Shown piece after piece: positions 10,294 through 27,833 of a stretch of 29,904 nucleotides of DNA (positions are counted from its first letter, which is position 1; each line of letters opens with the position of its first letter). Below the pieces are notes generated by a model. That model was not told where the DNA came from, searched no databases, and worked only from the letters and a program-made list of their open reading frames with translations. The DNA lies in the IMG/VR virus record IMGVR_UViG_3300021961_000426, positions 1 through 29,904 of that record. The stretch is one strand, 5' to 3'. The DNA comes from a virus. The position numbers and the translations under genes are program-made.

Positions 10294-10956
10294 TTATTCT
10301 CGTCCAATATACTGTATAACCCCATAAGATGAAGGTATCTCTGGATGAGCATAAGGGCTTGTTTGTGCTGCTGTTGCTTCTAAATAAATGCCGTCTTGTA
10401 TACCTGATTCATAAGCTTGTTCAGTTGCCCAGTATAATGCAAAGTTATCATTTTCTAAAGTCTCCCATGATACAAAGCTTGCTAATATATTGTAAGAATA
10501 TACTCCTGCACTTTTTCTAGCAGGAATAGTGTATTTAGTTGCTGAATCAGCAATATCTTGTCCATTAACTTGTAGCCAAACTACAGTATCTAGGGCTACG
10601 TTCGCTGTGTTAACTGCTTGTAATCTGTACTCAATTTTATAAGTTCCATCAAACAAAGCATTAGCTGTGCCATCAGTATTAAATGTAAATCCTACATTAT
10701 CAGGAGCATTATTAAAGGTAACTGTTGTAGGAGTGTCATCTCCACCAGCATACTGGTCTACGTCTGAATAAGCTGTAATATGTGGAAAACTAATTGCTGA
10801 CCCACCTGCAACATTTGATATTGTATTAATGTTAGCATTTAATCTATTAAAATAAAGTCTAAGTTCATTATTTAACTGTTCATTTCTTGTTCTTGAGTAT
10901 TCATTAGTAGCGGCAATTAAATTAGGAGGAGTTACAGGTTTTATTGAATGGGACAT
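10294..10956 (-). CDS. Virion structural protein with N-terminal helix and jelly-roll-like C-terminal domain, 220 aa
   Basis: Residues 15-48 form an amphipathic helix (NEQLNNELRLYFNRLNANIN), likely a trimeric coiled coil or attachment segment. From about residue 55 the protein is beta-rich: GTYKIEYRLQA (104-114), VWLQVNGQDI (126-135), then alternating strands to the end. This order of strands and the pattern of a helix followed by a receptor-type sandwich resembles C1q/TNF-like phage fibre tips or head fibres; I cannot assign a named family. Its ATG overlaps the TAA of the 713-aa gene (TAATG), so the two are probably made together and may be assembled near each other. The product may be a short fibre or decoration protein; confidence in the exact role is low. 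Confidence 0.75.
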   Translation of the reverse strand: MSHSIKPVTPPNLIAATNEYSRTRNEQLNNELRLYFNRLNANINTISNVAGGSAISFPHITAYSDVDQYAGGDDTPTTVTFNNAPDNVGFTFNTDGTANALFDGTYKIEYRLQAVNTANVALDTVVWLQVNGQDIADSATKYTIPARKSAGVYSYNILASFVSWETLENDNFALYWATEQAYESGIQDGIYLEATAAQTSPYAHPEIPSSYGVIQYIGRE

Positions 10957-13097
10957 TAGCCTCTCCTACCATCAGTTTTAAAGTCTATTCTTACGGAACC
11001 TAATTGCCATTGAGTTCCAACTTTATTAGACTGAATCTTAAAGTTCATTTGTCGACCACGAGCTCTTACAAATACTTGGTTTGTATATTGGTCAATTGTT
11101 GCTGTTGTAATAACATCGCGAGTTAAAGTATTACCTGCTACGTCATTAGTGTTTACTAATGCACCTGGGAAGTTACGTACACCAACAGTCATTTCTACTT
11201 CAGGAGTTGACGTTGCGTCTGATGTAGTAAAGTTAACATCAGGTATAACTCTCTTAGTTAATACAAATCTTTCACCATCTTCTATAGTTAAATCGGCTGA
11301 CTGAATGTATGCATTAATAGGTTGAGCCGCAGCATTTAATGGTTGACCATCATCAATGCCATCTTCATGTCTGTAAATATATCCATTAGATGCAGCAATA
11401 GGGTAATTAATAATTTGAGAATCAAACCATGCAGTTCTATTAAGTGTTCCATAATACCAGATTTGTTCTTGGTAATTATATATAACATATCTATCTATGT
11501 TTAATGCATTGTCAGAACAATAGAACCAAATTACTTCATCAAACTCTCTATTACTACCAGCAAAGAATAAGTTAGATTGACCTAAGTTTATATCATCAAA
11601 TACATATTGTTTTAGTGTGCAAGGTAGTGTTTGTACTCGACCATCATATAAGAAGAATTGGTCATGTCCCATCCACATAACAATATTATTAGCTTCAGTA
11701 ATTACATTAGGACCAGCAATATTAATATTTTCTGTAATACTTTGAATACCAAATACTTCATCTGTGCCTAAAAACTGTAAAGAATTTAAAGAAGTATCCG
11801 TAAATATAAGCGTTTCTTGTCTAGTGTTATACCCAGTAATAACTTTAGAACCACCTTTAACTCTTAAGAACCCTGCTGAATTAGTAGCCGTTGGTTTCCA
11901 TTCTTCTGGAACAGGACCTGTATCTGCATTAACATCAGCCCATCTAATTAATAGTGGGTCATAAGTACCTGTATAGTCTATAGAAACATAAGTTCCAACT
12001 ACAGAAGCGCTGCCTCCTGGGTCTGACAATAAAATTACTTTGAATGTAGTAGTTGATGGTACTTCAGTAACTTGAAACTCGCCTTGATAAGCTATTGGAG
12101 TTTGACCACTAAATTCTACCCAGTCTCCTACATCTAAACCGTGAGGTGATGCTGTTGTTACAGTAGCAGTCGTAGTTACATTAGTAATACTTGATATAGT
12201 TTGTCCTGCTGTTGTTGCTCTTGCATATTCTGTACAAGCTAAGGCTAATAGGTGTCCACTAGAGGTAAACATAATTTTGCCCACTTGTTGTGGTACAGCT
12301 CTAGCACCAGTCAATGAACTTAAAGCAACAGACCTATTTGTGAAAAGAGCATCATAGTCCCAATAGTATATTTCTCCATCTTGGATATTCCATATCATGT
12401 CATTGTTAAATTGTTCTAGGAATAAAAGTCTTTCTGGTAGTGATACAGGAGTTGCTGCACCTGAACCCCAAGTACCACGTCCCCAAGTACCTGCGCCCCA
12501 ACCATAACCATAAGTAGAACTACCATAACCGATAGATATTTGAAATACTGCTGTTATTGAAGTTCCACCACCCGCCGCTACAGTTGATGTTGCTGCCGTA
12601 GTTACCGTGACTTCAAATTCAGAACCTGATACAACACGAGTAACTTCATGTTCAGTATTTATCTCAACTGCTGGAATACCACCTACATCTGTTGAACCAC
12701 TAAAAGTAACAAAGTCTCCTGCTGAAGCTCCGTGTCCTGTTAAATTAATAATTAATGTAGTAGACCCACTTACAGTTTCAAACATATTGTCTGTGGCAGT
12801 GGTAGTAAATGTAGCTCTAATTGGGGTTATGTCATGGATAGTTGTACCAGACATTGCATACACTTTAGCATTAGTACCAAAGTTAATTAATTGCGCATTA
12901 TCTGTTGTACCGTAAGTTAAAATAGCACGGCAGTTACCTTTAAAAGCGTCGAAGTTTACAACTGTCCAACCACCTATTTTTTCAGGGTAACCTTTTCTAA
13001 ACCTAATTTTATCGCACGCATACCACCCACCTTCTTGTGAATAGTTAGTTATATCACGATTGATACCTGGTCTAAGTGTTATTTTCTTTAATGCCAT
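10956..13097 (-). CDS. Tail hub / packaged-DNA-stabilisation-like protein (P22 gp10-like), 713 aa
   Basis: The start is set at the ATG at 13097 (MALKKITLRPGINRD), one base after the endolysin stop. A longer reading to 13124 would run into the endolysin and lacks conserved sequence. The N-terminus GGWYACDKIRFRKGYPEKIG is characteristic of a large family of podovirus tail proteins that I associate with P22 gp10-like stabilisation proteins. Later blocks support this: RWADVN...PEEWKPTATNSAG, ETLIFTDTSLNSLQFLG and NIVMWMGHDQFFLYDGRVQ. Two similar beta inserts (about residues 106-171 and 303-356) share HGxxxGDxVxFSG. Known members sit below the portal and close the head after packaging; that role here is by family resemblance. 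A Gly/Trp/Tyr-rich loop (about 190-213) is unusual. Confidence 0.8.
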   Translation of the reverse strand: MALKKITLRPGINRDITNYSQEGGWYACDKIRFRKGYPEKIGGWTVVNFDAFKGNCRAILTYGTTDNAQLINFGTNAKVYAMSGTTIHDITPIRATFTTTATDNMFETVSGSTTLIINLTGHGASAGDFVTFSGSTDVGGIPAVEINTEHEVTRVVSGSEFEVTVTTAATSTVAAGGGTSITAVFQISIGYGSSTYGYGWGAGTWGRGTWGSGAATPVSLPERLLFLEQFNNDMIWNIQDGEIYYWDYDALFTNRSVALSSLTGARAVPQQVGKIMFTSSGHLLALACTEYARATTAGQTISSITNVTTTATVTTASPHGLDVGDWVEFSGQTPIAYQGEFQVTEVPSTTTFKVILLSDPGGSASVVGTYVSIDYTGTYDPLLIRWADVNADTGPVPEEWKPTATNSAGFLRVKGGSKVITGYNTRQETLIFTDTSLNSLQFLGTDEVFGIQSITENINIAGPNVITEANNIVMWMGHDQFFLYDGRVQTLPCTLKQYVFDDINLGQSNLFFAGSNREFDEVIWFYCSDNALNIDRYVIYNYQEQIWYYGTLNRTAWFDSQIINYPIAASNGYIYRHEDGIDDGQPLNAAAQPINAYIQSADLTIEDGERFVLTKRVIPDVNFTTSDATSTPEVEMTVGVRNFPGALVNTNDVAGNTLTRDVITTATIDQYTNQVFVRARGRQMNFKIQSNKVGTQWQLGSVRIDFKTDGRRG

Positions 13098-13098
13098 A

Positions 13099-13584
13099 TT
13101 AAGCTCCAGACATAAACATCGCATGTTCTGCGAGTCGTCTTCTTTGTAATCCTTTTAGTATGCGTCCACCGGCTCTACAATATTTTAAAAGAACTTCTCC
13201 AGCACGCGTTTTATCACCACGTAAAAATGCCGACCGAACTGTTGAGCGCTGAAATGTCCCCAAACCAAGATTAAAGCTAAAGCTGACAAGAGCATCAAAC
13301 TCAGACTGTTTTGGTTGCACAGTACCCAACAAACGAAGTACTCCCAGCTCGAAGCGTTGTAAGTCGTATTTAAGTAATCCATCCACTTCCTCTATTGTCC
13401 ATATTCTATTATCTTCTGGTTTTAATTTATATTGTTTTCTATCTGCTAAGTTCATTACTAATTGTCTAGGATATAAAGCATGACCACAACCGACCGTCCA
13501 TACATTGCCACTGCACATATACGGCTTATACTTAACCCCCTCGAAATACTTGATGAGGTGTATACCTGTCGGTGATGTTTTCAT
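13099..13584 (-). CDS. Endolysin, GH24 lysozyme (T4/P22 type)
   Basis: The protein hydrolyses the glycan chains of peptidoglycan at the end of infection. The catalytic triad pattern E-8 residues-D/C-5 residues-T is exact: E15 in KYFEG, C24 in YMCSG and T30 in WTVGCGH. Cys in the second position is found in some lysozymes of this family. FDALVSFSFNLGLGTFQRST (about 95-114) is the usual helical-lobe signature, and the length of 161 residues is normal. There is no signal peptide or signal-anchor, so release should depend on a holin. The gene follows the 3-TM holin with a TAATG overlap. The C-terminal tail is Arg-rich (KGLQRRRLAEH). Confidence 0.95.
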   Translation of the reverse strand: MKTSPTGIHLIKYFEGVKYKPYMCSGNVWTVGCGHALYPRQLVMNLADRKQYKLKPEDNRIWTIEEVDGLLKYDLQRFELGVLRLLGTVQPKQSEFDALVSFSFNLGLGTFQRSTVRSAFLRGDKTRAGEVLLKYCRAGGRILKGLQRRRLAEHAMFMSGA

Positions 13585-14081: not shown

Positions 14082-14495
14082 TTATTTAGCTAATGGGTTA
14101 GTTGTTGCTTTTTGTAATGCTCTCATTTTATCATTAACACCATCTATTTGCGACTTCACTTCACTTCTAATACTAGATAATGAAGCTTCTACTTCACGTG
14201 ATGTGCCTGAACTAACTGCTTTTGCTTCACGGGCTAGAGCTATAGCTTCGCTTGCTTTTTCTTGTAGTCTAATATTAGTGTGCATCAGCTCAACATATCT
14301 TTCACGTTGGTCATCTAATGCATCTTGTAATAGTTCTATTTTATTAGCATCAAACTTATTAATCACCGAAAGCATCTTGTTGTAGAGGGTTATCCCATAA
14401 TAAGCTCCTCCACCTATAATCGGCAATGCTGCCAAGACCAGCGTCAACATCGTCTTGGAAGACAAGGTCAAGGAGAATGTTTTGTTGTTGTCCAT
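14082..14495 (-). CDS. Membrane-anchored coiled-coil protein, possible inner-membrane spanin
   Basis: The 137 residues comprise a short N-terminal segment (DNNKTFSLTLSSK), one membrane helix (about 15-37) and a long charged helix with heptad-like spacing (42-130). The KTFSLTLSSKT start followed by a membrane helix is a pattern I remember from small marine phage proteins. Topology and position upstream of the holin and endolysin resemble an i-spanin, but no lipobox-bearing o-spanin partner is seen, so this is a guess. The start at 14495 lies 137 bases inside the 3' end of the exported Cys-rich gene. I keep it because an AGGA site stands 8 bases upstream and the N-terminus looks native. A later start (Met16) would cut into the membrane helix. 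Confidence 0.75.
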   Translation of the reverse strand: MDNNKTFSLTLSSKTMLTLVLAALPIIGGGAYYGITLYNKMLSVINKFDANKIELLQDALDDQRERYVELMHTNIRLQEKASEAIALAREAKAVSSGTSREVEASLSSIRSEVKSQIDGVNDKMRALQKATTNPLAK

Positions 14496-15468
14496 ATTCT
14501 TGTTCCTGTATAAGAGTTAAAACATCGTTTAACTGTATTTCTTGCAACTGAATGCCGTTGTTTAAAACATCCAGTGACATGGTGATGCCAAACCCTGGAA
14601 CTAATTCTTTGCCTTTTGGTACCTCAGGCGCTTTCTCTTTTACCTCTTCTTTCTGCTCTTCTTTTGGCTTTGAGCCTTGCTGCGACTCTGTCCCTTCTGA
14701 GCTGTTCGTAGTAACTTCTTTTTTGTCTTCTTTGGTCTGCTCTTGCTTCGGTTGGGTCTCTAAAGATTCCTCCTTCGGTTGCACCAAATCTGGCATAGTC
14801 GTCGTCAACACCTGCGCATTCTCCGGTGCAGTTACATTGTCTATGGCTGGAGGTTGTACACTCGTGTAGCTTTGGTTGACTGGGTCTGTTGAAGAACCAT
14901 CCGAAGTTGCTTGGGGTATAGTCGTTGATAGCGGCGATATTGGGTCCGTTACGCTCATCGTGCAGTTTTTGTTTGATTCTACCCAGTCTGTCCACTGTCC
15001 TTGTCCATAAGGGTCTGAACATTGATAACTTCTGACCTGAGTTATTGTTCCTTCGTAACCTGAATCGCATGCTATTTCCCTACTTTCTGCAGTATCAATA
15101 CAAGTCGCTGGTGCTGGGCTACAATTTTCTGAAGTAGTGACCCAAGGACCGAATGTATTGGTTTGACAATAATAATCCCTAACTTGGTTAACCACACCAA
15201 TAGTATTAGGCTCAGTACATGCAAGCGTTCTATACTCCACTGTGTCGCTACATGCAGGAATTGTTGCAAACGCTGAACAATATGGGTCACTAGGCGCGTG
15301 CCAGACGCAATAATGGTCTTCCAAAGCCACACTAACTTCAATGTCAGTGCAAACCATAGACCCATCAAGATACCAACCATCTTCTGTTTGACTGTACGAA
15401 CAATACCATGTATATCCATAATTACTCCACGTTGTCAGGATTATAAGGGTAAGTAGTAGCTTCTTCAT
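14359..15468 (-). CDS. Exported Cys-rich protein with two 4-Cys repeats and a charged linker, 369 aa
   Basis: A signal peptide is clear (MKKLLLTLIILTTWSNYGYT). Twelve cysteines lie between residues 23 and 169. The last eight form two similar repeats: C73-x10-C84-x16-C101-x14-C116 and C123-x10-C134-x15-C150-x18-C169, each starting C(S/I)DT and sharing QVRxYxC and a W before the last Cys. This suggests disulfide-bonded domains that fold in the periplasm, faintly like thrombospondin repeats. Residues 228-290 are a Lys/Glu/Gln/Pro linker, and the last 80 residues are acidic with no cysteine. I do not recognise the family. It begins 47 bases inside the preceding gene (AGGTGA site) and ends 137 bases inside the next. 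Lysis, host-envelope interaction or superinfection exclusion are possible; none is shown. Confidence 0.75.
   Translation of the reverse strand: MKKLLLTLIILTTWSNYGYTWYCSYSQTEDGWYLDGSMVCTDIEVSVALEDHYCVWHAPSDPYCSAFATIPACSDTVEYRTLACTEPNTIGVVNQVRDYYCQTNTFGPWVTTSENCSPAPATCIDTAESREIACDSGYEGTITQVRSYQCSDPYGQGQWTDWVESNKNCTMSVTDPISPLSTTIPQATSDGSSTDPVNQSYTSVQPPAIDNVTAPENAQVLTTTMPDLVQPKEESLETQPKQEQTKEDKKEVTTNSSEGTESQQGSKPKEEQKEEVKEKAPEVPKGKELVPGFGITMSLDVLNNGIQLQEIQLNDVLTLIQEQEYGQQQNILLDLVFQDDVDAGLGSIADYRWRSLLWDNPLQQDAFGD
14504..14507 (-). promoter_or_regulatory. Ribosome binding site inside the Cys-rich gene, for the coiled-coil protein
   Basis: AGGA lies 8 bases before the ATG at 14495, within the coding sequence of the 369-aa exported protein. 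It supports the long 137-base overlap being real. Confidence 0.55.
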
Positions 15469-15943
15469 TTGTCACCTGAGACTTTTTTACCTCATAGTTC
15501 TGACCATATAGTTTCTTAAATCGTGCTGGTTCTAATTCCCACCACGCCAATCTTGCAGCATCTCCTACTGAACCACCAACAGGGCATGGACTGCCAGACA
15601 TTTCCATAGCATCCCAGACATCTGGGTTTTTACAGAGCAACGACACTGCTGCTACTTTCAGGCCCATGTCATGGAGTGCCTTCGCATTTTTTAGTCTTAC
15701 GCAGTTATCGTCTGTCATAACAGTCCCCCCTGAAATTGCGAAGACACCTGTGTTGGCTCCTCCACTAACAGGAACAGCACAAACGTCCTGACTAAATGCT
15801 GACATACTTGGCGCCATCGCACTCGGTACGGGTTGGCCTTGATATTTTATAGTTGTTGTCCCACCGGCAAAAGCATACTCAGTTACGAGTAGAGCAAAAG
15901 CAACTCCTAAAGCGACGCTGAGATACCAAATAAAATCTTTCAT
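15422..15943 (-). CDS. Exported protein of unknown function, 173 aa
   Basis: The N-terminus has a signal sequence (hydrophobic residues 4-25) ending in EYAFAGG, a plausible signal peptidase I site after AFA. The mature part has four cysteines (C55, C81, C104, C120) and the blocks QPVPSAMAPSM and MGLKVAAVSLLCKNPDVWDA, followed by CPVGGSVGDAAR. I remember proteins with this plan (signal peptide, QPVP..A.P, SQDVC, VAAVSLMC, GDAARxxW) near fibre and lysis genes in other marine phages, but know no function. It begins at the TAATG overlap with the last glycine-rich gene and overlaps the Cys-rich gene by 47 bases. Two neighbouring exported proteins just before the lysis genes suggest a shared envelope-directed task. 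Confidence 0.8.
   Translation of the reverse strand: MKDFIWYLSVALGVAFALLVTEYAFAGGTTTIKYQGQPVPSAMAPSMSAFSQDVCAVPVSGGANTGVFAISGGTVMTDDNCVRLKNAKALHDMGLKVAAVSLLCKNPDVWDAMEMSGSPCPVGGSVGDAARLAWWELEPARFKKLYGQNYEVKKSQVTNEEATTYPYNPDNVE
15472..15477 (-). promoter_or_regulatory. Ribosome binding site inside the 173-aa gene, for the Cys-rich protein
   Basis: AGGTGA stands 3 bases before the ATG at 15468, inside the 3' end of the upstream exported-protein gene. It favours this start, which is also where the signal peptide begins. Confidence 0.55.
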
Positions 15944-17025
15944 TATCCTGTATAACTACCGCTAGAGGTAAATTTTAAAACTGTATAAGAACCATCAGTT
16001 GTAACAGTTGGGCTACCTGTTGTAGTGCCTGTGTAATTAGCTGTAAGCATCCGTAAGATAACTACACCTGAGCCTCCATCGCCACCAGAATAATATCCGC
16101 TATTAAAAGAACCTCCGCCGCCACCGCCTCCGGTATTAACAGTTGCATCACTACCAACTCCAGTTGATGACCCATTGCCGCCACCACCAGAGCCCCCTGT
16201 TCCAGCAGTTCCTGGTGAATAACTTGTAGAATTACCACCACCACCTCCACCGGCATAAGTTACTGATGAACCTGTAATAGATGAGGCTGAACCATTACCC
16301 CCATTACCAGATATACCAGTCTGACCTGTTGCACCTACAGCACCTGCACCTCCACCTCCACCTGCACCTGTGCTAACGGATGCTCCACCATTATTACCTT
16401 GACCAACAGTTCCTGAACCACCTGAAGTAGCAGTTCCTGACCAAGCAGAACCACCACCTGAACCACCGCTGGCGCCGTTTCTAATGCCATCACTATTTTC
16501 ATTAGAGCCACCGCCGCCACCGCCTATAGATGTGATTGTACTAAAACCTGTTCCACTTAAAACTGAATTTGAACCGTTCGACCCTCTTGAAAAAGTAGAG
16601 GTAGAACCTGCTCCACCACCACCTACTGTAACTGTACAAGTAGTTCCTACCTCAATAGTTATAGTGTCTGTAAGTAATCCTCCAGCTCCTCCGCCACCAG
16701 CTACTCCATCTCCACCACCAGCACCACCAGCGACTACAAGATAATCAATATCATAAGGATAGTTATCCATAGTTGTTGTTAGCCAATCGCTTCCATCATA
16801 TAGTTCGACTACAGATTCTGTTGTGTTATAGCGAATCATACCTTGAGCTGGGCTAGCGGGTCTTTGTGCAGTTGAGCCTGAAGGTATATTTATTCGGCTT
16901 ACGCCATCGTTGATAACAAGATTTCCTGTTTTAGCAGGTATAGAGATTGTATTAAGTCCAGATACAGCAGGTGATTCTACTGTTATTTCGCCTGAAGTAG
17001 ACCCTTTTAGTTTGAATGTTGCCAT
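15943..17025 (-). CDS. Glycine-rich fibre/adhesin protein 4, 360 aa
   Basis: The N-terminal domain (1-45) reads MATFKLKGSTSGEITVESPA and closely matches that of the paralogue at 19451-20551. A connector follows (STAQRPASPAQGMIRYNTTE at 51-70, then ELYDGSDW). From about residue 98 to 320 the protein is dominated by glycine runs separated by short Ser/Thr/Asn loops, and it ends with GVVILRM and FTSSGSYTG. Such sequences form polyglycine-II helix bundles in phage S16 gp38-type adhesins, where the loops bind the receptor; that comparison is from family knowledge. The likely role is host recognition at the fibre tip. It is the last of four paralogues in transcription order and starts 9 bases after the previous one. 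Confidence 0.85.
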   Translation of the reverse strand: MATFKLKGSTSGEITVESPAVSGLNTISIPAKTGNLVINDGVSRINIPSGSTAQRPASPAQGMIRYNTTESVVELYDGSDWLTTTMDNYPYDIDYLVVAGGAGGGDGVAGGGGAGGLLTDTITIEVGTTCTVTVGGGGAGSTSTFSRGSNGSNSVLSGTGFSTITSIGGGGGGSNENSDGIRNGASGGSGGGSAWSGTATSGGSGTVGQGNNGGASVSTGAGGGGGAGAVGATGQTGISGNGGNGSASSITGSSVTYAGGGGGGNSTSYSPGTAGTGGSGGGGNGSSTGVGSDATVNTGGGGGGGSFNSGYYSGGDGGSGVVILRMLTANYTGTTTGSPTVTTDGSYTVLKFTSSGSYTG

Positions 17026-17034
17026 TGAGTATCC

Positions 17035-18066
17035 TTATCCTGTATAACTTCCTGAGCTTGTATATGTTAGTATCGTGTCTGAACCATCTGTAGTTACTGT
17101 AGGTGAGCCTGTAGTTGTACCAGAGTATCTATCTGTAGGCATACGAAGTATTACCACACCTGAACCGCCTGAGCCACCAGTATTGTCACTTCTATTACCA
17201 CCGCCACCACCACCAGTATTAGCAGTTCCTGCAGTTCCACTACCAGAGCTACCTCCTGCTCCGCCACCACCAGAACCTCCAGCAGCTCCGCCATTTGCAT
17301 GGCATCCACCGCCACCTCCAGCACGAGTTACAGATGTGCCAGTAATTGATGAAGCTAAACCTGCACCACCAGCTCCAGCAGAGCTAGAGCTACCATTACC
17401 ACCAACTGCATTAGCGCCACCACCACCACCACCACCTGATAATGTTATAGTGCTTGTAGAAGTTCTAAAACCTAATCCACCATTATTTCCTTGACCTGCT
17501 GTTCCAGCACCACCAGCCGTTGTTCCATTTGCTTGAAAACTAATAGCTGTTCCGCCTCCACCAGAGCCTCCATTATAACCAGCATTACCATCAAGATTAT
17601 TTCCACCTCCACCACCACCTATTGATGTAACGCTTACAATTCCACCAGAGATTGAGCTATCACTTCCACTATAAGATGCAGCACCACCAGCACCTACAGT
17701 GATTGTATAATTATTACCTTGTGTAAAAGTTGTAGTGTTTGTTAAATACCCACCAGCGCCGCCGCCTCCGCCTTTATAGTATGTATTTGAAAATGTAATT
17801 CTTCCACCACCGCCACCACCTGCTACGGATAAATAAGTGACAGTATAATCATAAGAAGTTGTTAATATTTGTACCCAGTTAGACCCGTCGTAGCCTTCAT
17901 AAGTAGATTCAGTAGTATTGTATCGGACTGTTCCTGCTGTTGGACTTCCAGGTCTTTCAGCAGTTGTGCCTACAGGTACATCAAAACCACCAGAACCATT
18001 ACCACCACCTACGGTGACGTTGTCCTGTATTAAGCTAACACCATTTTCTGTTACGGTAACTGTCAT
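17035..18066 (-). CDS. Glycine-rich fibre/adhesin protein 3, 343 aa
   Basis: The N-terminus (MTVTVTENGVSLIQDNVTVG) resembles the next paralogue upstream (GIDKVQDNATV), so this pair forms a second N-terminal type. The connector is GTTAERPGSPTAGTVRYNTT near residue 33, followed by YDGSNWVQ. The glycine-rich body spans about residues 85-300 and ends in GVVILRMPTDRYSGTTTG and YTSSGSYTG. At 17416-17436 seven consecutive Gly codons are six GGT plus one GGC, a microsatellite that could slip in frame. The predicted fold is a polyglycine-II sandwich with variable loops; a receptor-binding role is inferred from the phage S16 gp38 family. Its start overlaps the upstream stop (TAATG). Confidence 0.85.
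   Translation of the reverse strand: MTVTVTENGVSLIQDNVTVGGGNGSGGFDVPVGTTAERPGSPTAGTVRYNTTESTYEGYDGSNWVQILTTSYDYTVTYLSVAGGGGGGRITFSNTYYKGGGGGAGGYLTNTTTFTQGNNYTITVGAGGAASYSGSDSSISGGIVSVTSIGGGGGGNNLDGNAGYNGGSGGGGTAISFQANGTTAGGAGTAGQGNNGGLGFRTSTSTITLSGGGGGGGANAVGGNGSSSSAGAGGAGLASSITGTSVTRAGGGGGCHANGGAAGGSGGGGAGGSSGSGTAGTANTGGGGGGNRSDNTGGSGGSGVVILRMPTDRYSGTTTGSPTVTTDGSDTILTYTSSGSYTG
17416..17436 (-). repeat. GGT trinucleotide microsatellite coding for seven glycines
   Basis: Six consecutive GGT codons plus one GGC on the minus strand lie inside glycine-rich adhesin 3. Loss or gain of units would keep the frame. Shorter GGN runs occur in the other three adhesin genes. Confidence 0.8.
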
Positions 18067-19052
18067 TATGCTGTGTATGAACCACTAGATGTAAATGTTA
18101 ATATTGTGTCTGTTCCGTCTGTAGTTACTGTTGGTGAACCTGTTGTAGTACCAGTATATCTTGCTGTAGGAACTCTTAATATAACTACGCCTGAACCACC
18201 TGCACCACCAGCAGTCTCACCACCACCGCCACCACCACCAGTATTAGCAGTTCCTGCAGTTCCAGTTCCAGTAACAGCACCACCACCACCACCACCTGTG
18301 CCACCAGAGCCTGCAACTGACGCAGCAGTACCACCACCACCTCCAGCACGAGTAACAGATGAACCAGTAATGCTGCTAGCTAAACCAACGCCTCCAGTGC
18401 CTCCAGTGCTTCCAGAGCCGTTGCCGCCAACAGCGCCCGCACCGCCACCACCTCCAGCTGCCCACGGACCTGGACCGCTTACATAGCCTGCGCTAGTGCC
18501 ACCAGCAAAACCTTGACCTGATGTGCCAGAGCCAGCTGTTCCTGGGCTAATACTTACTCCACCTCCCGAACCTCCTGAAGCTGGGTTTACACTAGGATAA
18601 CTTCCGCCGCCACCTCCACCTACAGCAGTTGTTAGCCCAGTTAATGTTGAGTTTGACCCATTAGTGCCTGGAACTGCCGAAGTAGCTGCGGCTGCTCCAC
18701 CAGCACCAACTGTTGCTGTATATACAGAACCGATAGTTAAGTTTGTAGTTCCTGTTAAATAACCACCAGCACCTCCACCGCCACTATAGTTATCTCCCGC
18801 GCCACCTCCACCTGCTACAATTAAGTAGTCAGCAGAGTATGTATAAACTGAAGTATCTACTTGAACCCAAGCACTTCCATTATAAGTTTCGTAACTAGAT
18901 TCTGTGGTGTTATATCTTAGTACACCTACAGTTGGACTTCCTGGTCTTTGAGCAGTCGTTCCTGACGGAACTGTAAAACCGCCTGTACCAGATACAGTCG
19001 CATTGTCTTGTACTTTATCTATCCCTGTGGTTCCGTCAATATTCGCTGTCAT
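18066..19052 (-). CDS. Glycine-rich fibre/adhesin protein 2, 328 aa
   Basis: The N-terminus is MTANIDGTTGIDKVQDN, then the connector SGTTAQRPGSPTVGVLRYNT and YNGSAWVQVDTSVYTYSADY. The body from about residue 78 to 285 alternates glycine runs with Ser/Thr/Ala loops. The end reads GVVILRVPTARYTGTTTG, then FTSSGSYTA. The general plan is the same as the three paralogues, but loops differ in length and sequence. The Gly runs are coded mostly by GGT and GGC, so the opposite strand shows long Pro-rich open frames that are not genes. It lies between the 128-aa fibre-associated gene and adhesin 3, with TAATG overlaps at both ends. A receptor-binding role is inferred. Confidence 0.85.
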   Translation of the reverse strand: MTANIDGTTGIDKVQDNATVSGTGGFTVPSGTTAQRPGSPTVGVLRYNTTESSYETYNGSAWVQVDTSVYTYSADYLIVAGGGGAGDNYSGGGGAGGYLTGTTNLTIGSVYTATVGAGGAAAATSAVPGTNGSNSTLTGLTTAVGGGGGGSYPSVNPASGGSGGGVSISPGTAGSGTSGQGFAGGTSAGYVSGPGPWAAGGGGGAGAVGGNGSGSTGGTGGVGLASSITGSSVTRAGGGGGTAASVAGSGGTGGGGGGAVTGTGTAGTANTGGGGGGGETAGGAGGSGVVILRVPTARYTGTTTGSPTVTTDGTDTILTFTSSGSYTA

Positions 19053-19438
19053 TATTCAGTTACCTCAACCCATCCTGTTGTGTTATCTGCTTGGTGTGCA
19101 TCTTCATCCCATACATATCTGTTACCATCTGTTGGATATGGTAATGGACAATCCCACTGACAAGTATCTTCATTTAGTGTCCATGAAGCATAGGGTTGTG
19201 GTGGAATAAATGCGTCTCTAGTTGCATCATAGGTAAAACCTATTCCTGCATAATTTTTTCTTAGCGCAACACCGCCATCTGGGTTGCCGTCTTGTCCATA
19301 ATGAACACCACCTCTTGTATTATAAGATGTTTGTATCCATGTACCTGGTGAGTCGTCAACAAAGGTGTCGAAGAAATCTGCTTCTGCGACTATAACCTTG
19401 GTAACAACTCCGTCTGCTACTTTTGCATAATGTGCCAT
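19052..19438 (-). CDS. Fibre-associated protein, 128 aa (possible fibre assembly or tip protein)
   Basis: The sequence starts MAHYAKVADGVVTKVIVAEA and contains GTWIQTSYNTRGGVHYG (32-48), KNYAGIGFTYDATRDAFIPP (61-80) and YASWTLNEDTCQWDCP (83-98). It ends in an acidic, aromatic tail. I recognise this as a family common in cyanophages and other marine phages, usually next to tail fibre genes, for which assembly-chaperone or structural roles have been suggested; I know no experimental proof. The gene is flanked by glycine-rich adhesins on both sides, with an AAGGAG ribosome site in the 12-base space upstream and a TAATG overlap downstream. That position supports a link to the adhesins. Confidence 0.85.
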   Translation of the reverse strand: MAHYAKVADGVVTKVIVAEADFFDTFVDDSPGTWIQTSYNTRGGVHYGQDGNPDGGVALRKNYAGIGFTYDATRDAFIPPQPYASWTLNEDTCQWDCPLPYPTDGNRYVWDEDAHQADNTTGWVEVTE

Positions 19439-19450
19439 AAATTGCTCCTT

Positions 19451-20551
19451 TTAAGCTGTATAAGTTCCTGAACTTTTAAATATTAGTATAGTGTCTGTTC
19501 CATCAGTAGTAACTGTAGGTGAACCTGTTGTAGTTCCTGAATAATTGACTGTAGGCATACGTAAGATAACAACACCTGAACCACCAGCACCAGAACTACC
19601 AACATTACCTACACCACCAGAACCGCCACCTGTGTTTGCTGCGGCAGAAGATGAACTAGCTCCAACTCCACCAGCAGTTCCACCACCAGAGCCACCAGCA
19701 CCAGTAGTTGCGCCTACATATCCAGCTCCTCCACCACCTCCAGCAAAATATACTGAGGTGCTTACTACTTCACCAACTGAGTTAGATGTAGCTTGTGCTG
19801 TTGTAATAATAGCAGTTGTTAGACCAACGCCACCTGCTCCTGCTACTGTAGTACTTGAATTGTTTGCACCTGCTGCACCAGCTCCTCCGCCACCAGCTGT
19901 AGCATAAGGACTTGCACTAGATGAACCATTACCACCTGCATTACCCTGACCAGCAGTACCTGCACCACCATTTGTTGGAGGAGAAGAACCGCCGCCTCCA
20001 CCTGAACCACCTGATAAACCTCCACCAGCGCCAGAAAAAGCTCCGCCTCCGCCGCCACCAACAGCAGTTAAACTTAATCCGGTTGAGTTGCTCCCAGAAA
20101 TACCTCTGCTAGCTCCAGCACTTTGACCTGCAGCACCAGCACCTACCGTAAATGAATATGTTGTGCCAGACCCCGATGTAAAAGTAGTTGAACCTGATAA
20201 AAGTCCCCCTGCACCGCCACCGCCGCCTGTATTTGTACCTCCTGAAGCTCCGCCAGCAACAATAAGATAATCAACAGAGTATGGATAACCTTCAGTACTT
20301 ACTATTTCCCAAAGAGTGCCATTGTATATTTCTAATTGTGACTCGGTTGTGTTATATCTTAAATCGCCTTGAGCGGGGCTTACAGGTCTTTGTGCTGTTG
20401 TACCCGCTGGGACTTCTATAGAACCTGTGCCATCATTGATTATCATAGTGCCCGTACTTGCAGGTATAGTAAGCGTGTTTGTTCCCGCAACTGCCGGAGC
20501 TGATATTGTTATTTCACCTGAAGTAGAGCCTTTTAGATTAATTGATGCCAT
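19451..20551 (-). CDS. Glycine-rich fibre/adhesin protein 1, 366 aa
   Basis: Residues 1-45 (MASINLKGSTSGEITISAPA) are of the same type as adhesin 4. The connector GTTAQRPVSPAQGDLRYNTT is followed by EIYNGTLWEIVSTEGYPYSV. The glycine-rich body (about 100-325) includes long Ser/Ala-rich loops and ends in GVVILRMPTVNYSGTTTG and FKSSGTYTA. The likely fold is a polyglycine-II bundle with receptor-binding loops, as in S16 gp38-like adhesins (family knowledge). It begins 14 bases inside the 3' end of the 56-aa XkdW-like gene. It is separated from the other three adhesins by the 128-aa gene, which suggests an older duplication followed by local tandem copying. Confidence 0.85.
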   Translation of the reverse strand: MASINLKGSTSGEITISAPAVAGTNTLTIPASTGTMIINDGTGSIEVPAGTTAQRPVSPAQGDLRYNTTESQLEIYNGTLWEIVSTEGYPYSVDYLIVAGGASGGTNTGGGGGAGGLLSGSTTFTSGSGTTYSFTVGAGAAGQSAGASRGISGSNSTGLSLTAVGGGGGGAFSGAGGGLSGGSGGGGGSSPPTNGGAGTAGQGNAGGNGSSSASPYATAGGGGAGAAGANNSSTTVAGAGGVGLTTAIITTAQATSNSVGEVVSTSVYFAGGGGGAGYVGATTGAGGSGGGTAGGVGASSSSAAANTGGGSGGVGNVGSSGAGGSGVVILRMPTVNYSGTTTGSPTVTTDGTDTILIFKSSGTYTA

Positions 20552-20708
20552 CTAGTTGCTCCTGTGTTGGTTTGGCAAGTGTTGGATGTTCCCATAACTT
20601 GATGTAATCACCTCTGCCATCGCTGTCGTTTTGTAAATAAATTACTGTTAAGAAATCATTATCAGTTAATTGTGGATAGATTGCTTTTATTTTTTCAGGT
20701 AATGTCAT
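20538..20708 (-). CDS. XkdW-like small protein, 56 aa
   Basis: This short gene starts at an ATG that shares one base with the TAA of the C1q-like gene (TAATG) and ends TAA, overlapping the next gene by 14 bases. The product begins MTLPEKIKAIYPQLTDNDF, continues VIYLQNDSDGRGDYIKLWEH and ends PTLAKPTQEQLDGIN. The pattern (L.P.L...DF, LQNDSDG.GDYI..W.HP, PT.EQL) resembles the phage XkdW family, whose members lie beside tail fibre genes; the match is from memory. Without this gene, the 156 bases between its neighbours would be empty in a region with no other such gap. A fibre-associated role is likely. Confidence 0.85.
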   Translation of the reverse strand: MTLPEKIKAIYPQLTDNDFLTVIYLQNDSDGRGDYIKLWEHPTLAKPTQEQLDGIN

Positions 20709-21310
20709 TATGCTCCCCTTATTAATGCACCAGAAAATACAGTAACAACACCATTGCCATCGCCACCAACAGATGGAGATGTTGCTATAATTTGAGCATA
20801 TACTTCAATGTAGTCAGTAGTGCCATTCATATATATAACTGCTCCTCCAGAAAGTCCTTCAAATGCAGATTGAGCAACTCCCTGACTTCCTGATAATCTA
20901 CTTAACTCTATTCCGTTTTTGAAAAAAGCACCGTGTGTAGAAGTCACTGATGTTCCTTTACATCTTACAGTAGCATTAACTTGGTAATATCCTTCTACTG
21001 TTGGAGTAAATGTAGATGATGCAAAATTAGAATTTGTGTCAAATCTTTCATTGTCAAAAGTAACTTTTGTATATACATCAGAAGTTACACTTTGGTCAGA
21101 TGATTTCCAAACACTAAATGTTGGACCAGCATTTTGTATAATATCACCAGTCAATGCTGATGCTGGTAATGTTTTGCCAGCTGCCATTGTAATACCACTG
21201 CTATCTACTGTAGCAATGTCTGCACCAGCACTCTGTAGTTTTATTTCACCGGACGTATCCGATGTCATTACTAAGCCACTAGATGTATCCGCGTTTAATG
21301 TTATTGACAT
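20708..21310 (-). CDS. Fibre protein with C1q-like (TNF-fold) C-terminal domain, 200 aa
   Basis: The N-terminal stretch (1-55) reads MSITLNADTSSGLVMTSD and GEIKLQSAGADIATVDSSGI, a repeat-like triple-strand attachment region related to the N-termini of two glycine-rich proteins. From residue 63 the C1q-like domain follows: FSVWKSSDQSVTSDVYTKVT, FDTNSNFASSTFTPTVEGYY, then GAFFKNGIELSRL and a final VTVFSGALIRGA. These blocks match C1q-like head or tail fibre proteins commonly seen in phages. Such domains trimerise and often bind surface glycans. It stands between the classic tail fibre and the XkdW-like gene, 9 bases after the former with an AGGA site. Confidence 0.88.
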   Translation of the reverse strand: MSITLNADTSSGLVMTSDTSGEIKLQSAGADIATVDSSGITMAAGKTLPASALTGDIIQNAGPTFSVWKSSDQSVTSDVYTKVTFDNERFDTNSNFASSTFTPTVEGYYQVNATVRCKGTSVTSTHGAFFKNGIELSRLSGSQGVAQSAFEGLSGGAVIYMNGTTDYIEVYAQIIATSPSVGGDGNGVVTVFSGALIRGA

Positions 21311-21319
21311 AATATATTC

Positions 21320-22321
21320 CTATAATATAACCCAGCGCTGTCCGCTTGGGATGGTTACTGTAACGCCTGAATTTACTGTTATAGGCCCTACACTCATTGC
21401 ACTTTTTCCTGTAGATAAGGTATAGCTTGTTGTTACTATTAATGCATTTTCTTGGAAGACTTCATCACCGCCTCCACCTGTAGCGCCTCCACCAATGCTA
21501 CCCCATGCTGTAGTATACCCTTCAAATTTATCTGTGTCACTATTATACCTCATCATGCCACCTAATGGTGAACCTGGTCTTTGAGCTGTTGTACCGGTTG
21601 GTAATTTTACACTTGCATTAGAAGAAAAAGTTAGTGTTGCTGGTGTTGTTAAGGTTCCACCAGAGATTGTGATTCCTGTAAATGTACCTGTTGTAAATGT
21701 ACCCGCCGCTGCCGCTGTACCACCGATTGCTGGGGGTGAAGCTAAATAATTACTAAATCCTACACCTGAAACTGTGCCTGATGCAGATAAATTTGCCGCA
21801 GTTAAATTGCCTGATGAAGTTAAGTTAGTAAATGTTCCTGCTGCAGCTGTACCTCCACCTATAACTGTACTATCTATAGTACCGCCATTAATATCTGCTG
21901 AAGTTACACTTAAAGAAGCTAAATCATTAATAACATTAACTACATTCGTTGCATCATTAAATACAAGAGTAGTCTTACCAGCTGGAACTGCAACGCCTGT
22001 GCCTGTAGAATTTTTAATAGTAACTGTATCAGCAAGTCCATTATTAACAATGTAGAACTTTTCTATGTTTGGTACAATTAAGTTTCTAGCACCACCTGAT
22101 GTGCCTGTTAGATTAAGTCTTAGATTACGAAAAGGTTGAGTAGCGTTAGAATCAGAGGCTGTTAAAGTAACATCTGCACTAGAAAAACTAACGTCGGCAG
22201 AGCCTGTAATGGCTTCTTCTATTGCCGTACCTAAATTGGTATTGGTAGTAATGCCCCATGTACCTGATTGGTCACCGGTACCAATTAACTCAATTTTTAA
22301 ATCTGAATATGTACTTGCCAT
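21320..22321 (-). CDS. Tail fibre protein with conserved N-terminal domain, 333 aa
   Basis: The N-terminus MASTYSDLKIELIGTGDQSG plus TWGITTNTNLGTAIEEAI is one of the best-conserved phage tail fibre starts; NLIVPNIEKFYIVNNG (about 82-97) belongs to the same domain. A Gly/Thr-rich repeat region follows (about 135-235, with GTFTxxTxSG units). Then comes the connector PTGTTAQRPGSPLGGMMRYN, shared with the glycine-rich proteins, and a C-terminal module (MSVGPITVNSGVTV, then PSGQRWVIL) shared with the 171-aa protein. The N-terminal domain should attach to the virion and the C-terminal parts should reach outward. The gene follows the zinc-ribbon gene after 25 bases containing an AAGGA site. Confidence 0.92.
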   Translation of the reverse strand: MASTYSDLKIELIGTGDQSGTWGITTNTNLGTAIEEAITGSADVSFSSADVTLTASDSNATQPFRNLRLNLTGTSGGARNLIVPNIEKFYIVNNGLADTVTIKNSTGTGVAVPAGKTTLVFNDATNVVNVINDLASLSVTSADINGGTIDSTVIGGGTAAAGTFTNLTSSGNLTAANLSASGTVSGVGFSNYLASPPAIGGTAAAAGTFTTGTFTGITISGGTLTTPATLTFSSNASVKLPTGTTAQRPGSPLGGMMRYNSDTDKFEGYTTAWGSIGGGATGGGGDEVFQENALIVTTSYTLSTGKSAMSVGPITVNSGVTVTIPSGQRWVIL

Positions 22322-22346: not shown

Positions 22347-22553
22347 TTAACTCGATTGTCCTTCCATTGGAATACTTGTAGCATGTACTTTAGTATGACG
22401 TTTTTCATTCCAAGCTTCTCCACAATCGGAACATGTACCTGAATTATATTCTTCAGCGTCTACTTTCATACCACAATGTGAACATTCAAGTTCTACTTCA
22501 TAAGCACATTCTACTGTGCCATCTGCTTTTTTAGTTGCATCTATTTTTATCAT
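22347..22553 (-). CDS. Small zinc-ribbon protein, 68 aa
   Basis: Two CxxC pairs (C24-x2-C27 in CSHC and C41-x2-C44 in CSDC) are spaced as in a zinc ribbon. The preceding beta hairpin (GTVECAYEVELE) carries an extra Cys16. The tail is hydrophilic and unstructured. No DNA-binding or enzymatic domain is attached. It overlaps the tandem-repeat gene by 4 bases (ATGA) and precedes the tail fibre gene. I do not know a function; it may be a structural clip in the virion or a small regulator of the host. Confidence 0.82.
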   Translation of the reverse strand: MIKIDATKKADGTVECAYEVELECSHCGMKVDAEEYNSGTCSDCGEAWNEKRHTKVHATSIPMEGQSS

Positions 22554-23575
22554 GCTGCTATCTCCGTCCAGTTAGGCGTTTGTGTTGTTGTTACATCTGT
22601 CCAGTTTGGTGTCTGATTAGTATCTATTTCACCCCATACAAGAGTAAATACATTAGTTTGTCCTTGTGCTTCTACTCCTGTTACATTTACAGTAGTTCCT
22701 GAACCTTCTACTACTGTTACATTTCCTAAATTAGTTATTAATCTAGATGTTAAAGATATAGGAACATTCGCGTCCGCTGTAACACTTTCACTTCCTAATC
22801 CGGTCGTACCTACATTGCCCGTGACATTAACGCTTACACCTGTACCTTCTATTACTGTTACAGAACCTAAAGCACTTGTACCTGCGTCTCCAGTTACTGA
22901 AACATTAACTCCTGTGCCTTCTATGACTGTTGCTGTTCCTAAAGCTGTTGTTCCAGCTAGCCCAGTCACTGTGACATTTGCATCTGCTGTTACTGAATAT
23001 CCACTATCAAGAACCCCAGTGCTTTCAACACCAGTAACATTTACTTCTATATCAAATTTAATTTCTACACTATTTAAAGCTGTTGTACCTTGTACACCTG
23101 TAACACTTACATTTGCATCACCTGTTGCATCAGCTGTACCTAATCCAGTTGTTCCTTGTACACCTGTAACACTCGCGTTTGCATCTGCGGTGATTGTTAC
23201 ATCACCTACTGTTGTAGTGCCTACTTCGCCTGTAACAGCTACACTTACTCCAGTTCCTTCTACTACTGTAACACTGCCTACTGTTGTAGTGCCTGCTTCA
23301 CCTGTAACACTTACATTTGCATCAGCTTCTACACTAGCTGTGCCTAAAGCTGTTATACCAGCTAATCCTGTAACACTTACATTTGCATCTGCGGTGATTG
23401 TTACATCACCTATATTACCTGTTGCATTTACTCCTGTTGGGAATACATTTGCGCCTGCAACAACAGTTTCATTTCCTAGTCCAGTAGTTCCTTGTACACC
23501 CGTAACAGCTACGGAAACACTTATGTTCCCTAACGCCGAAAAGGCGGAGGTGGCTAAAGGGCTATCGGAAAACAT
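22550..23575 (-). CDS. Tandem-repeat beta-rich virion surface protein, 341 aa
   Basis: After a short N-terminus (MFSDSPLATSAFSALGN) the protein consists of about 12-13 repeats of 22 or 24 residues, typified by ADANVSVTGxxGTTxLGxVT with variable linkers such as VVEGTGVSV. The C-terminus has a duplicated motif (QTPNWTDV, then QTPNWTEI) preceded by VWGEIDTN. I remember proteins with the FSDxPF start, VTG repeats and a W-containing end from marine phages, where they are annotated as structural. The repeats suggest a beta-solenoid or a chain of small beta modules forming a fibre whose length depends on repeat number. The gene abuts the 171-aa gene and overlaps the zinc-ribbon gene by 4 bases. Confidence 0.85.
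   Translation of the reverse strand: MFSDSPLATSAFSALGNISVSVAVTGVQGTTGLGNETVVAGANVFPTGVNATGNIGDVTITADANVSVTGLAGITALGTASVEADANVSVTGEAGTTTVGSVTVVEGTGVSVAVTGEVGTTTVGDVTITADANASVTGVQGTTGLGTADATGDANVSVTGVQGTTALNSVEIKFDIEVNVTGVESTGVLDSGYSVTADANVTVTGLAGTTALGTATVIEGTGVNVSVTGDAGTSALGSVTVIEGTGVSVNVTGNVGTTGLGSESVTADANVPISLTSRLITNLGNVTVVEGSGTTVNVTGVEAQGQTNVFTLVWGEIDTNQTPNWTDVTTTQTPNWTEIAA
22690..23515 (-). repeat. Intragenic tandem repeats, 66- and 72-base units
   Basis: About 12 degenerate in-frame units code for 22- or 24-residue repeats (ANVSVTGxxGTTxLGxVT). Some copies are nearly identical at DNA level: a 31-base stretch is exact at 23178-23208 and 23382-23412 (204 bases apart), and an 18-base stretch is exact at 23205-23222 and 23277-23294 (72 bases apart). 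Unit borders are approximate. Confidence 0.8.
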
Positions 23576-24091
23576 TTACAGTACTACCCAGCGTTGTCCT
23601 GACGGTACTGTTACTGTAACCCCACTACCAATAGTAATTGGTCCTACACTCATTCCATTATATCCTGTAGGAAAAGTATAATTAGCACCAACGGTTTCAT
23701 TGTTTGTAACTATACCATTTGATGCTTCTAAATTAGCTCCTGATAAATCACCAGAAACTGTAACGTCTCCATTTGCATCTCCGTATACTGCTTTACCCGC
23801 TGGATACACAACAAATACATCTTTAGTTCCTGCAGAAAAGTTTACAGCGCTCCCTGCATTAGAAGACGCAAGAATAGTATCACGAGATAAAGTTGTACCT
23901 GATGCAGTATATGTACCAAGACCTACTTCCCATTCATCAGCAGCACTTAACTGAATAGTGTAATACGTTGTATTACCATCGCCGATAGCAGAGAAAGCTT
24001 GATAATCAGTCACTGCTCCAGCTAGTGTTAAAGTACCTGTACCTGTCGTGGTAGTAGTTTCTTTTACCCTGTCTTTAACAACAAGAGCCAT
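23576..24091 (-). CDS. Virion/fibre protein, 171 aa, with the SGQRW C-terminal module
   Basis: The start MALVVKDRVKETTTTTGTGT followed by LTLAGAVTDYQAFSAIGDGN and TTYYTIQ is a pattern I remember from many phage structural proteins. The central DTILASSNAGSAVNFSAGTK and VFVVYPAGK also fit. Residues 135-171 end in NGMSVGPITIGSGVTVTVPS and GQRWVVL, the same module that ends the tail fibre at 21320-22321. The protein is beta-rich throughout. It probably forms part of a fibre or virion decoration. It is 12 bases downstream of the 148-aa gene and adjoins the tandem-repeat gene with no space. Confidence 0.85.
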   Translation of the reverse strand: MALVVKDRVKETTTTTGTGTLTLAGAVTDYQAFSAIGDGNTTYYTIQLSAADEWEVGLGTYTASGTTLSRDTILASSNAGSAVNFSAGTKDVFVVYPAGKAVYGDANGDVTVSGDLSGANLEASNGIVTNNETVGANYTFPTGYNGMSVGPITIGSGVTVTVPSGQRWVVL

Positions 24092-24551: not shown

Positions 24552-24836
24552 TTATATCTCCAAAATTTTAATTAAATCTGAATGTCCTGCATCACGCAGT
24601 TTATTCGCTATTGTTGTATGATTAGACTTAATCGCCTTTTTCATATATTGCACTAGAACATGTCTAATGTTGTTTTTGTAAGCTTCTGCTTGCTCACGTA
24701 TTAACGGGTTAGCATCTTGAGCAACATATATAATCTTTGCTAATGCCATTTCCGCTACTTGTTCAGGCGTATGCCCGTGTCCTGGTTCAGAGGTAATTAC
24801 ATCAAACTGTAAATCCCCAAAGTTCATTTCTTTCAT
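24552..24836 (-). CDS. Small helical protein of unknown function, 94 aa
   Basis: The start is fixed by the TAATG overlap with the adaptor gene. After a short strand region (FGDLQFDVITSE) there is GHGHTPEQVAEMALAKII, then long amphipathic helices to residue 92. I recall similar proteins (PGHGHTPE, then A..Y..N...VL..YM..AI.SD..T) next to adaptor genes in other marine phages. No enzymatic motif is visible. It may be a connector-associated or assembly protein, by position only. Confidence 0.8.
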   Translation of the reverse strand: MKEMNFGDLQFDVITSEPGHGHTPEQVAEMALAKIIYVAQDANPLIREQAEAYKNNIRHVLVQYMKKAIKSNHTTIANKLRDAGHSDLIKILEI

Positions 24837-25471
24837 TATTTAACCGGTATCCTTTCTTGCCCACTTCTGTAAGCATCCCGTCTATTTTTACCTTCACCTA
24901 AATTTTGTAATAATCCCATAGCCTCATTATATTTATTCATATATTGAGTTACTGTATCTGCCTCATCTTTCATAAAGACAGCCGCTTCCAACAAACTTCC
25001 ATAGAATAAAGCACTATCAAAATTATCACCCAACCAAGTGTTACCAGCTGTAACAATAGACTCAGGATAATAATAGTAATGAAGCTCAGAACTGTAATTA
25101 GCGTCTGGTGTAGGTCCAAGCAACATTGTTGTATCATTGAATATAGCATAATATTCTGGTTTCCCATAAAACGGAGTATCAGTATCAGGGAAAGATTCTC
25201 TAATAAAATTTACGTCTTTGTTCAAAAGATAAGTATACTCGTTATTAGCATTAATTACAGCTATACTAAAAGTAGATAACCAATCACTAGGTAAACTAAA
25301 ATATTTATTACCGCTTGTCATGTTACCTGTCATATTTTTACGTAAGTCAGGCAGTTGAACTGAATTATATATTCTTTGTTCAGCTTGTTGTATAAATGTA
25401 TTTACATCAGTAGTGCTATACTGGTTTTCTGTATACGATTGTATAGCTGCTACAAGTTCTGTATAGTTCAT
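24836..25471 (-). CDS. Head-tail adaptor protein (SU10 adaptor-like), 211 aa
   Basis: The sequence MNYTELVAAIQSYTENQYST, IQQAEQRIYNSVQLPDLRKN and YFSLPSDWLS matches the phage adaptor family that I associate with SU10-type head-tail adaptors. Further blocks are YLLNKDVNFIRESFPD, GPTPDANYSSELHYYYYPES and LLEAAVFMKDEADTV. Adaptors form a ring below the portal and connect it to the tail. The protein is soluble, with mixed helices and strands and a helical C-terminus. It follows the 55-aa gene after 9 bases (AAGGA site) and precedes the 94-aa gene. The family call is from recognised motifs; no search was run. Confidence 0.88.
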   Translation of the reverse strand: MNYTELVAAIQSYTENQYSTTDVNTFIQQAEQRIYNSVQLPDLRKNMTGNMTSGNKYFSLPSDWLSTFSIAVINANNEYTYLLNKDVNFIRESFPDTDTPFYGKPEYYAIFNDTTMLLGPTPDANYSSELHYYYYPESIVTAGNTWLGDNFDSALFYGSLLEAAVFMKDEADTVTQYMNKYNEAMGLLQNLGEGKNRRDAYRSGQERIPVK

Positions 25472-26020: not shown

Positions 26021-26701
26021 TTATAAATACTGCCGACGGGGTGCAAGTCTTAAATCGGCTTTTTCTCTATCTTCTGTTGAAGCTAACATCCATTGTTCTT
26101 CATATTCATTTTTTAACATCTGAGTTCTCATATCAGCACCAGGTAATTTCATACTTAAATAAAAAGCTAAACCTGCTACTAAACATGGTAAGAATCTAAA
26201 TGGTATATCTTGAGTGTTAACGCCGTTCCCTGCGTCCTCAATTCGCTTCAATCTCCAATAAACAAATGTGTAATTATTTGTATCGGGTGCGGGCCATACA
26301 TTAATTTGTGGTTGACTTGCTTGTCTATTTATCCACACTTGTATTGGTCTACCTGTTGCATTTTTATTTGGTATAGTACCGTATGTAGGAGCAGATATTC
26401 TGGTTATATTTATATCTTGTTGATTCTGCCCTGTGCCTGTTCTAATTACTTGTTCAATCAAATCTATTGTGTCGGCTGGAAGATTATAGTTAATAGTTCC
26501 GCTTGTTAAAGATACATTACCTTCTTCAATCGTCCAAAGGTTAATTCCTCTATTTGCCCATTCTGCAGTCAATAAATTTAAACTGCGTCTTGCAGTTCTT
26601 AAATCATAACCTGTACGTAGTTCAGCACCGCATCGCTCAAACGCCTCTTCGACTATTTGATTTAAGTCCATATTAAATGTTGCTGTTCCTGAAGTTGCCA
26701 T
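26021..26701 (-). CDS. Head-to-tail connector / tail accessory structural protein, 226 aa
   Basis: Conserved blocks are FNMDLNQIVEEAFERCGAEL (9-28), GYDLRTARRSLNLLTAEWAN (31-50) and RGINLWTIEEG. Later come NYNLPADTIDLIEQVI and a C-terminal helical part with AFYLSMKLPGADM. I recognise this as a widespread podovirus-type connector protein comparable to P22 gp4-like or tail tubular A-like proteins; which is closer cannot be decided by eye. Such proteins bind the portal and complete the head-tail joint. The ATG overlaps the stop of the upstream basic gene (TAATG). Together with the 211-aa adaptor and the 713-aa stabiliser it makes a plausible short-tail neck. Confidence 0.85.
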   Translation of the reverse strand: MATSGTATFNMDLNQIVEEAFERCGAELRTGYDLRTARRSLNLLTAEWANRGINLWTIEEGNVSLTSGTINYNLPADTIDLIEQVIRTGTGQNQQDINITRISAPTYGTIPNKNATGRPIQVWINRQASQPQINVWPAPDTNNYTFVYWRLKRIEDAGNGVNTQDIPFRFLPCLVAGLAFYLSMKLPGADMRTQMLKNEYEEQWMLASTEDREKADLRLAPRRQYL

Positions 26702-27455: not shown

Positions 27456-27456
27456 T

Positions 27457-27827: not shown

Positions 27828-27833
27828 CTCCTT
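27828..27833 (-). promoter_or_regulatory. Strong ribosome binding site of the 66-aa Lys-rich gene
   Basis: AAGGAG overlaps the TAA stop of the 143-aa gene and stands 6 bases before the ATG at 27821. Confidence 0.7.

Follow-up and report, generated by a model that had tools for sequence, protein, structure and literature searches.

Organisation of the fibre locus

The window, by which we mean the whole stretch of 29,904 bases analysed here, is the complete IMG/VR virus record IMGVR_UViG_3300021961_000426 and probably represents a fragment of a phage genome. All genes of its fibre region are encoded on the minus strand, and those of the adhesin array are transcribed in the order A2, a 128-aa phrog_7759-like gene, B2, B1 and A1 (Table 1). 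Adjacent array genes share 1 base or sit about 10 bases apart, in an operon-like arrangement.

The initial annotation described four paralogous glycine-rich adhesins in one fibre locus, and this description held. The four ORFs run from ATG to stop at the positions given there, and each has the common connector (GTTAQRPxSPxxGxxRYNTTESxxExYxGSxW), a glycine-rich body and the common ending (GGSGVVILR...GTTTGSPTVTTDG...SSGxYT). The proteins contain 27-30% Gly overall and show pairwise identities of 56-63%; PF21722 (Gly_rich_2) was matched by all four at 62.8-90.2 bits, far over its curated cut-off of 24.3 bits. Used as a query, A1 recovered the other three with E values of 1e-59 to 1e-72, which, together with the recurrence of the four slots in a second contig (see below), excludes chance likeness. 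As to the two proposed types of N-terminus, the type A pair was clearly alike (65% aa identity across 40 residues) but the type B pair only loosely so (~40% across ~20 residues).

Table 1. Features of the fibre locus (positions in the window; limits of bodies approximate)
Feature	Position	Strand	Basis or remark
Fibre-like protein, upstream edge of exchange hotspot	21320..22321	-	Connector of adhesin type at ~residues 228-276
Fibre-like protein upstream of array	20708..21310	-	L181 retains only the first 41 aa, remainder different
Adhesin A2, 366 aa, type A anchor; first array gene of transcript	19451..20551	-	ORF; PF21722 64.5 bits; orthologous anchor in L181
A2 anchor + connector, retained in L181	20327..20551	-	High nt identity until ~codon 75-100
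A2 glycine-rich body, different in L181	19568..20284	-	DNA comparison with L181
phrog_7759-like protein, 128 aa	19052..19438	-	PHROG match 6e-34; adjacency; model and fold search
Adhesin B2, 328 aa, type B anchor	18066..19052	-	ORF; PF21722 62.8 bits
B2 anchor + connector	18843..19052	-	98-100% nt identity to L181
B2 glycine-rich body; L181 has instead one common to L114	18177..18830	-	DNA comparison
Adhesin B1, 343 aa, type B anchor	17035..18066	-	ORF; PF21722 65.2 bits
B1 anchor + connector, retained in L181	17857..18066	-	nt identity
B1 glycine-rich body; closest relative L388, unrelated anchor there	17152..17844	-	Body comparison
Adhesin A1, 360 aa, type A anchor; last array gene	15943..17025	-	ORF; PF21722 90.2 bits; AlphaFold2 model
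A1 anchor + connector, retained in L181	16771..17025	-	nt identity
A1 glycine-rich body; closest relative L393, unrelated anchor there	16066..16758	-	Body comparison
phrog_20531 protein, 173 aa, downstream edge of exchange hotspot	15422..15943	-	83-97% identity in relatives with differing cassettes

Further neighbours are two SU10-adaptor-family proteins (24836-25471 and 26021-26701), a phage lysozyme (13099-13584) and a virion protein (10956-13124), for which tblastn matched 'stabilization' and similar proteins of DSL-LC04, HTVC023P and HTVC027P at 30-34%; its nearest relatives are uncultivated contigs, several of them of ~60 kb. Adjoining the lysozyme gene, 14359-15468 (minus strand) encodes 369 aa with cysteine-rich repeats; the protein matched no family and is conserved in relatives (80-86%). 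The protein encoded at 22550-23575 (minus) is built of units like VSVTGVQGTTGLG, and its length differs among close relatives (e.g. 213, 274, 331, 341 and 373 aa), which suggests that the repeat number changes between them. A C-terminal module of ~40 residues, ~64-76% alike, is common to the proteins of 23576-24091 and 21320-22321 (both minus) and also caps a longer protein (3790-5637) of contig L156; the last ~16 residues are common to the adjoining proteins 27832-28263 and 27054-27509 (minus), and this tail recurs in relatives. The L181 homologue of 20708-21310 (L181:5859-6596) ends, after the 41 kept residues, in an intramolecular-chaperone-like domain (S74-like, by eye), and L156:7585-8439 has a similar ending.

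The initial annotation also supposed that known phages typically have one such adhesin. One copy per known phage was ruled out: four copies occur in the cultured Pelagibacter phage HTVC023P and as many as nine in uncultivated contigs, hence four are not exceptional. Among 167 non-redundant loci with Gly-rich genes, at least two genes occurred in 76, at least three in 33, at least four in 16 and nine in one, proportions that are not an unbiased survey as the loci were gathered mostly by similarity to these genes. The largest array found, L137 (IMG/VR 3300002144_000284), has nine Gly-rich-domain genes in ~15 kb. DSL-LC04 has one Gly-rich gene with two domains, and none was found within the 27.8-kb stretch of HTVC027P examined.

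Predicted fold of the adhesins and the probable partner gene

The AlphaFold2 model of A1, based on an alignment of 82 sequences solely from the window and the related loci collected, had a mean pLDDT of 92 and a pTM of 0.83. It was weakest at residues 21-40 (pLDDT 59-68), and the anchor end lies partly in such lower-confidence regions. All fold matches in the PDB were partial, with TM-scores of 0.29-0.48. The best was the Bxb1 tail tip (9d93_Qa; E 7.9e-5; TM-score 0.34 by query and 0.48 by target), followed by the Pam3 tail fibre (7ypx_A; E 0.012, probability 0.99, TM-score 0.29/0.40), also found with a sequence profile (E 0.024); partial overlaps with the glycine-rich domains of ALK and LTK were non-significant. 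S16 gp38 was neither a sequence match among solved structures nor, at E<=10, a fold match of A1. The predicted viral structures gave 124 matches to A1 at E<=0.001, and most of the top ones were named 'glycine-rich domain-containing protein'. Altogether, the confident model and the matches to the Bxb1 tail tip and the Pam3 fibre agree with the adhesin-like glycine-rich fold predicted at the outset. The glycine-rich parts of the model are mostly neither helix nor strand, which fits polyglycine-II without proving it, and polyglycine-II is the likely conformation of the modelled bodies. In the 82-sequence alignment, invariant glycines with variable stretches between them form a conserved glycine-rich frame as in T-even gp38/S16-type adhesins.

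Short, well-superposed matches of A1 (~40 residues) to the CBA120 tailspike and the Major Tropism Determinant probably involve the connector of the model, hence our guess that the connector is a trimeric stalk. Against the PDB, the connector by itself had a single weak match, gp49 (9d83; E 0.012). Whole-adhesin searches matched mainly the connector because the low-complexity filter masks the glycine-rich part; tblastn of the 47-aa ending against phage records returned no match.

The four proteins probably grip host cells by binding receptors, and they may be displayed together on one virion. Alternatively, they could be structural or decorative, e.g. providing general surface stickiness, and PHROG 2295 has no assigned function. 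However, the genes sit among fibre genes, the modelled fold is like tail-tip and fibre domains, and the body is swapped while base and anchor are retained (see below), as expected were the body meeting changing hosts. A structural or decorative role is unlikely.

The gene between A2 and B2 points to a function for phrog_7759, a companion of these adhesins in many uncultivated phages. Such proteins were present in 130 of the 167 loci, and 134 of their 140 copies lay within 60 bp of a Gly-rich gene, compared with 129 of 969 other same-strand small genes, counts to which the same ascertainment by Gly-rich similarity applies. Pfam and NCBIfam have no family for them. The model of the window's protein (pLDDT 95) had as its top PDB match the Pam3 chaperone gp25 (7ypx_a; E 0.38, probability 0.84), not significant alone; entry 7ypx was matched independently by the adhesin model and by this one. 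We infer that the phrog_7759-like protein is probably a folding or capping partner of the adhesins.

Retained anchors and replaced heads

The contig L181 belongs to the same species as the window by its flanks, most flanking proteins being 95-100% identical, and it was the only same-species contig covering all four slots. The four slots of the window recur in it, together with the neighbour gene (97%). In each orthologous pair, the DNA of anchor and connector was 94-100% identical; past codons 70-100 the identity dropped to that between paralogues (mostly 30-70% per step of ten codons) in 4/4 genes, with a partial recovery at the 3' end. The swap of the heads, i.e. the glycine-rich bodies, is directly visible between same-species genomes.

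Relatives of three of these bodies were found in other phages. L181 B2 joins a window-type anchor to a body mostly 73-98% DNA-identical to that of a gene in L114, where the 44-aa anchor is unrelated and the neighbours are those of another phage. The closest body to that of window A1 was in L393 (70% aa, with one run of more than 20 identical residues), and for B1 it was in L388 (74% aa), compared with only 52-57% for their L181 orthologues. Both L388 and L393 are different phages judged by their other genes, L388 having a related cassette. Direct donors were not found, the donor relatives being at 70-86% aa, and the A2 body yielded no donor relative.

Fast mutation of receptor loops could in principle have made the bodies diverge in place, without exchange: loops are where fast evolution is expected, and bodies of anchor-matched pairs were slightly above random (median 59% vs. 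51%). Such divergence does not account for a fall from near 100% identity to background within ~10-20 codons in all four genes, nor for the nearest bodies sitting on unrelated anchors in other phages. It is contradicted for three bodies (window A1 and B1, L181 B2) and could still hold for A2; as a general explanation it is very improbable.

Anchors, bodies and ends were compared across 198 genes from 117 loci. In 33 pairs the anchors were at least 80% identical; these pairs, which form eight contig clusters and not 33 independent events, had median anchor, body and end identities of 87, 56 and 91%, with bodies below 65% in 28 pairs. Where bodies were at least 70% identical (17 pairs), anchors were below 50% in 10. 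Random body pairs were 51% identical (43-60%) and composition-shuffled ones 38%, both normalised to the shorter sequence, whereas the 198-gene comparison was normalised to the longer. Judged from these alignments, anchors and bodies are uncoupled. The type A anchor was also joined to non-glycine-rich C-termini (L155:14002-14922 and L388:1191-1730), which makes it look like a general docking module.

Relatives with a close copy of the 173-aa phrog_20531 protein (Table 1) had very different gene sets between it and the homologue of 21320-22321: small genes that are not glycine-rich in L016, L010, L173 and L175, other sets of glycine-rich genes in L163, L170 and L172, and mixed sets in L164 and L176. 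This region is an exchange hotspot.

Since anchors are kept and bodies swapped in L181, three bodies have foreign relatives, and anchors and bodies are uncoupled, the sequence comparisons indicate that heads have been replaced by exchange between phages. The initial annotation named loop-level diversity or mosaic copies as support for recombination; body-level diversity and mosaic copies were present in relatives.

The four copies had also been proposed as a possible store for recombination that changes host range. Replacement of the variable part was borne out; a store within the genome, with the copies recombining mainly with each other by gene conversion to give new combinations, was not. 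Ends were more alike within arrays than between them (78% vs. 55%), the L337 array has two bodies 71-77% alike, and one body occupies different slots in the related phages L339 and L342. Nevertheless, median body identity was 54% within arrays vs. 51% for unrelated arrays, barely above background, the window has no near-identical bodies, and the three swapped bodies have their relatives in other phages. Ends that are alike next to bodies that barely are favour outside heads on a shared base over reshuffling, and we consider intragenomic exchange an improbable main source.

Diversity-generating retroelements, DNA inversion and poly-G slippage are programmed switching systems that diversify receptor-binding proteins in other phages. 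In this locus the changes are whole blocks, and programmed switching of the heads is scarcely credible. Retroelement-, inversion- or integrase-driven switching was discarded for lack of such enzymes in relatives: reverse transcriptase, resolvase and integrase occurred in 0/11 related records, the window's own record being a fragment where absence is not proven. Poly-G phase variation was rejected too, the longest G run in the adhesin genes being 5. ERF was found in 1 of the 11 related records and RecT in none. By default, homologous or illegitimate recombination during co-infection would move the heads.

Proposed model and comparison with known systems

The reading that we consider likely is that of four co-transcribed, modular host-recognition fibres whose slot anchors are kept and whose heads are swapped between phages. 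The carrier would be an aquatic phage, kin to podovirus-like phages with ~60 kb genomes. Its slot-specific N-terminal anchors probably dock to the virion, the connector probably forms a trimeric stalk, and the conserved end would close the base of the glycine-rich head. Loops of the head probably meet the receptor, and the 128-aa phrog_7759 protein probably assists in folding or capping the heads. Anchors would be inherited with the phage species; for heads, recombination would exchange whole blocks for those circulating in other phages. With four slots, a virion can probably hold four different heads and have one replaced without loss of the others, which may bring a fitness benefit; several receptors might be used at once.

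A bolder hypothesis is a population-wide cassette system: connector and end would serve as shared crossover regions, heads would keep moving between the tandem slots of many unrelated aquatic phages, each virion would bear several unrelated heads, and phrog_7759 would be the common folding partner making any head usable. We regard it as rather doubtful. For the host range of uncultivated aquatic phages, the locus suggests a testable rule: anchor kept, head swapped, several heads carried.

Glycine-rich adhesins, mosaic fibres and fibre chaperones are each already known; their combination here, in which anchors are conserved by slot, heads are swapped as blocks, copies stand in tandem and a partner gene is consistently present, was undescribed in the limited literature searched. 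HTVC023P (MN698239, 36241-41937) likewise has a cluster of four glycine-rich-domain proteins and a stabilisation-like protein ~30% identical to that of the window, but its array proteins are longer (443-491 aa) and annotated merely as hypothetical; a paper on HTVC023P-type phages makes no mention of tail fibres, adhesins or glycine-rich genes. Mycobacteriophage Bxb1, whose tail-tip glycine-rich protein (9d93_Qa) was the best solved match of A1, is a long-tailed phage. T-even gp38 adhesins (S16, T2, PP01; PMC12892980) similarly combine conserved glycine-rich motifs with hypervariable segments that set host range, but gp38 is a single copy at the gp37 tip, whereas each of the four adhesins here has its own anchor.

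In cyanophage Pam3 (7ypx, 7yfw; PMC9608196), the fibre gp24 has a glycine-rich domain for receptor recognition whose stem is conserved and whose tip is hypervariable, and its chaperone gp25 is a small dedicated partner encoded with the fibre; the locus may be of similar design. Pam3 differs in having one copy, with an alpha-helical N-terminal shaft and a TNF-like domain instead of anchors and connector. The haloarchaeal hafunavirus locus (PMC8651126) also places a glycine-rich adhesin in a hypervariable region, and same-species viruses differ in adhesins and host ranges; unlike here, one adhesin gene is followed by one small gene, and the hosts are archaeal. Alteromonas phages A5 and V22 (PMC10579305) offer a fibre-chaperone module common to unrelated phages, but there the entire fibre and chaperone are shared, in contrast to the glycine-rich heads on retained anchors described here.
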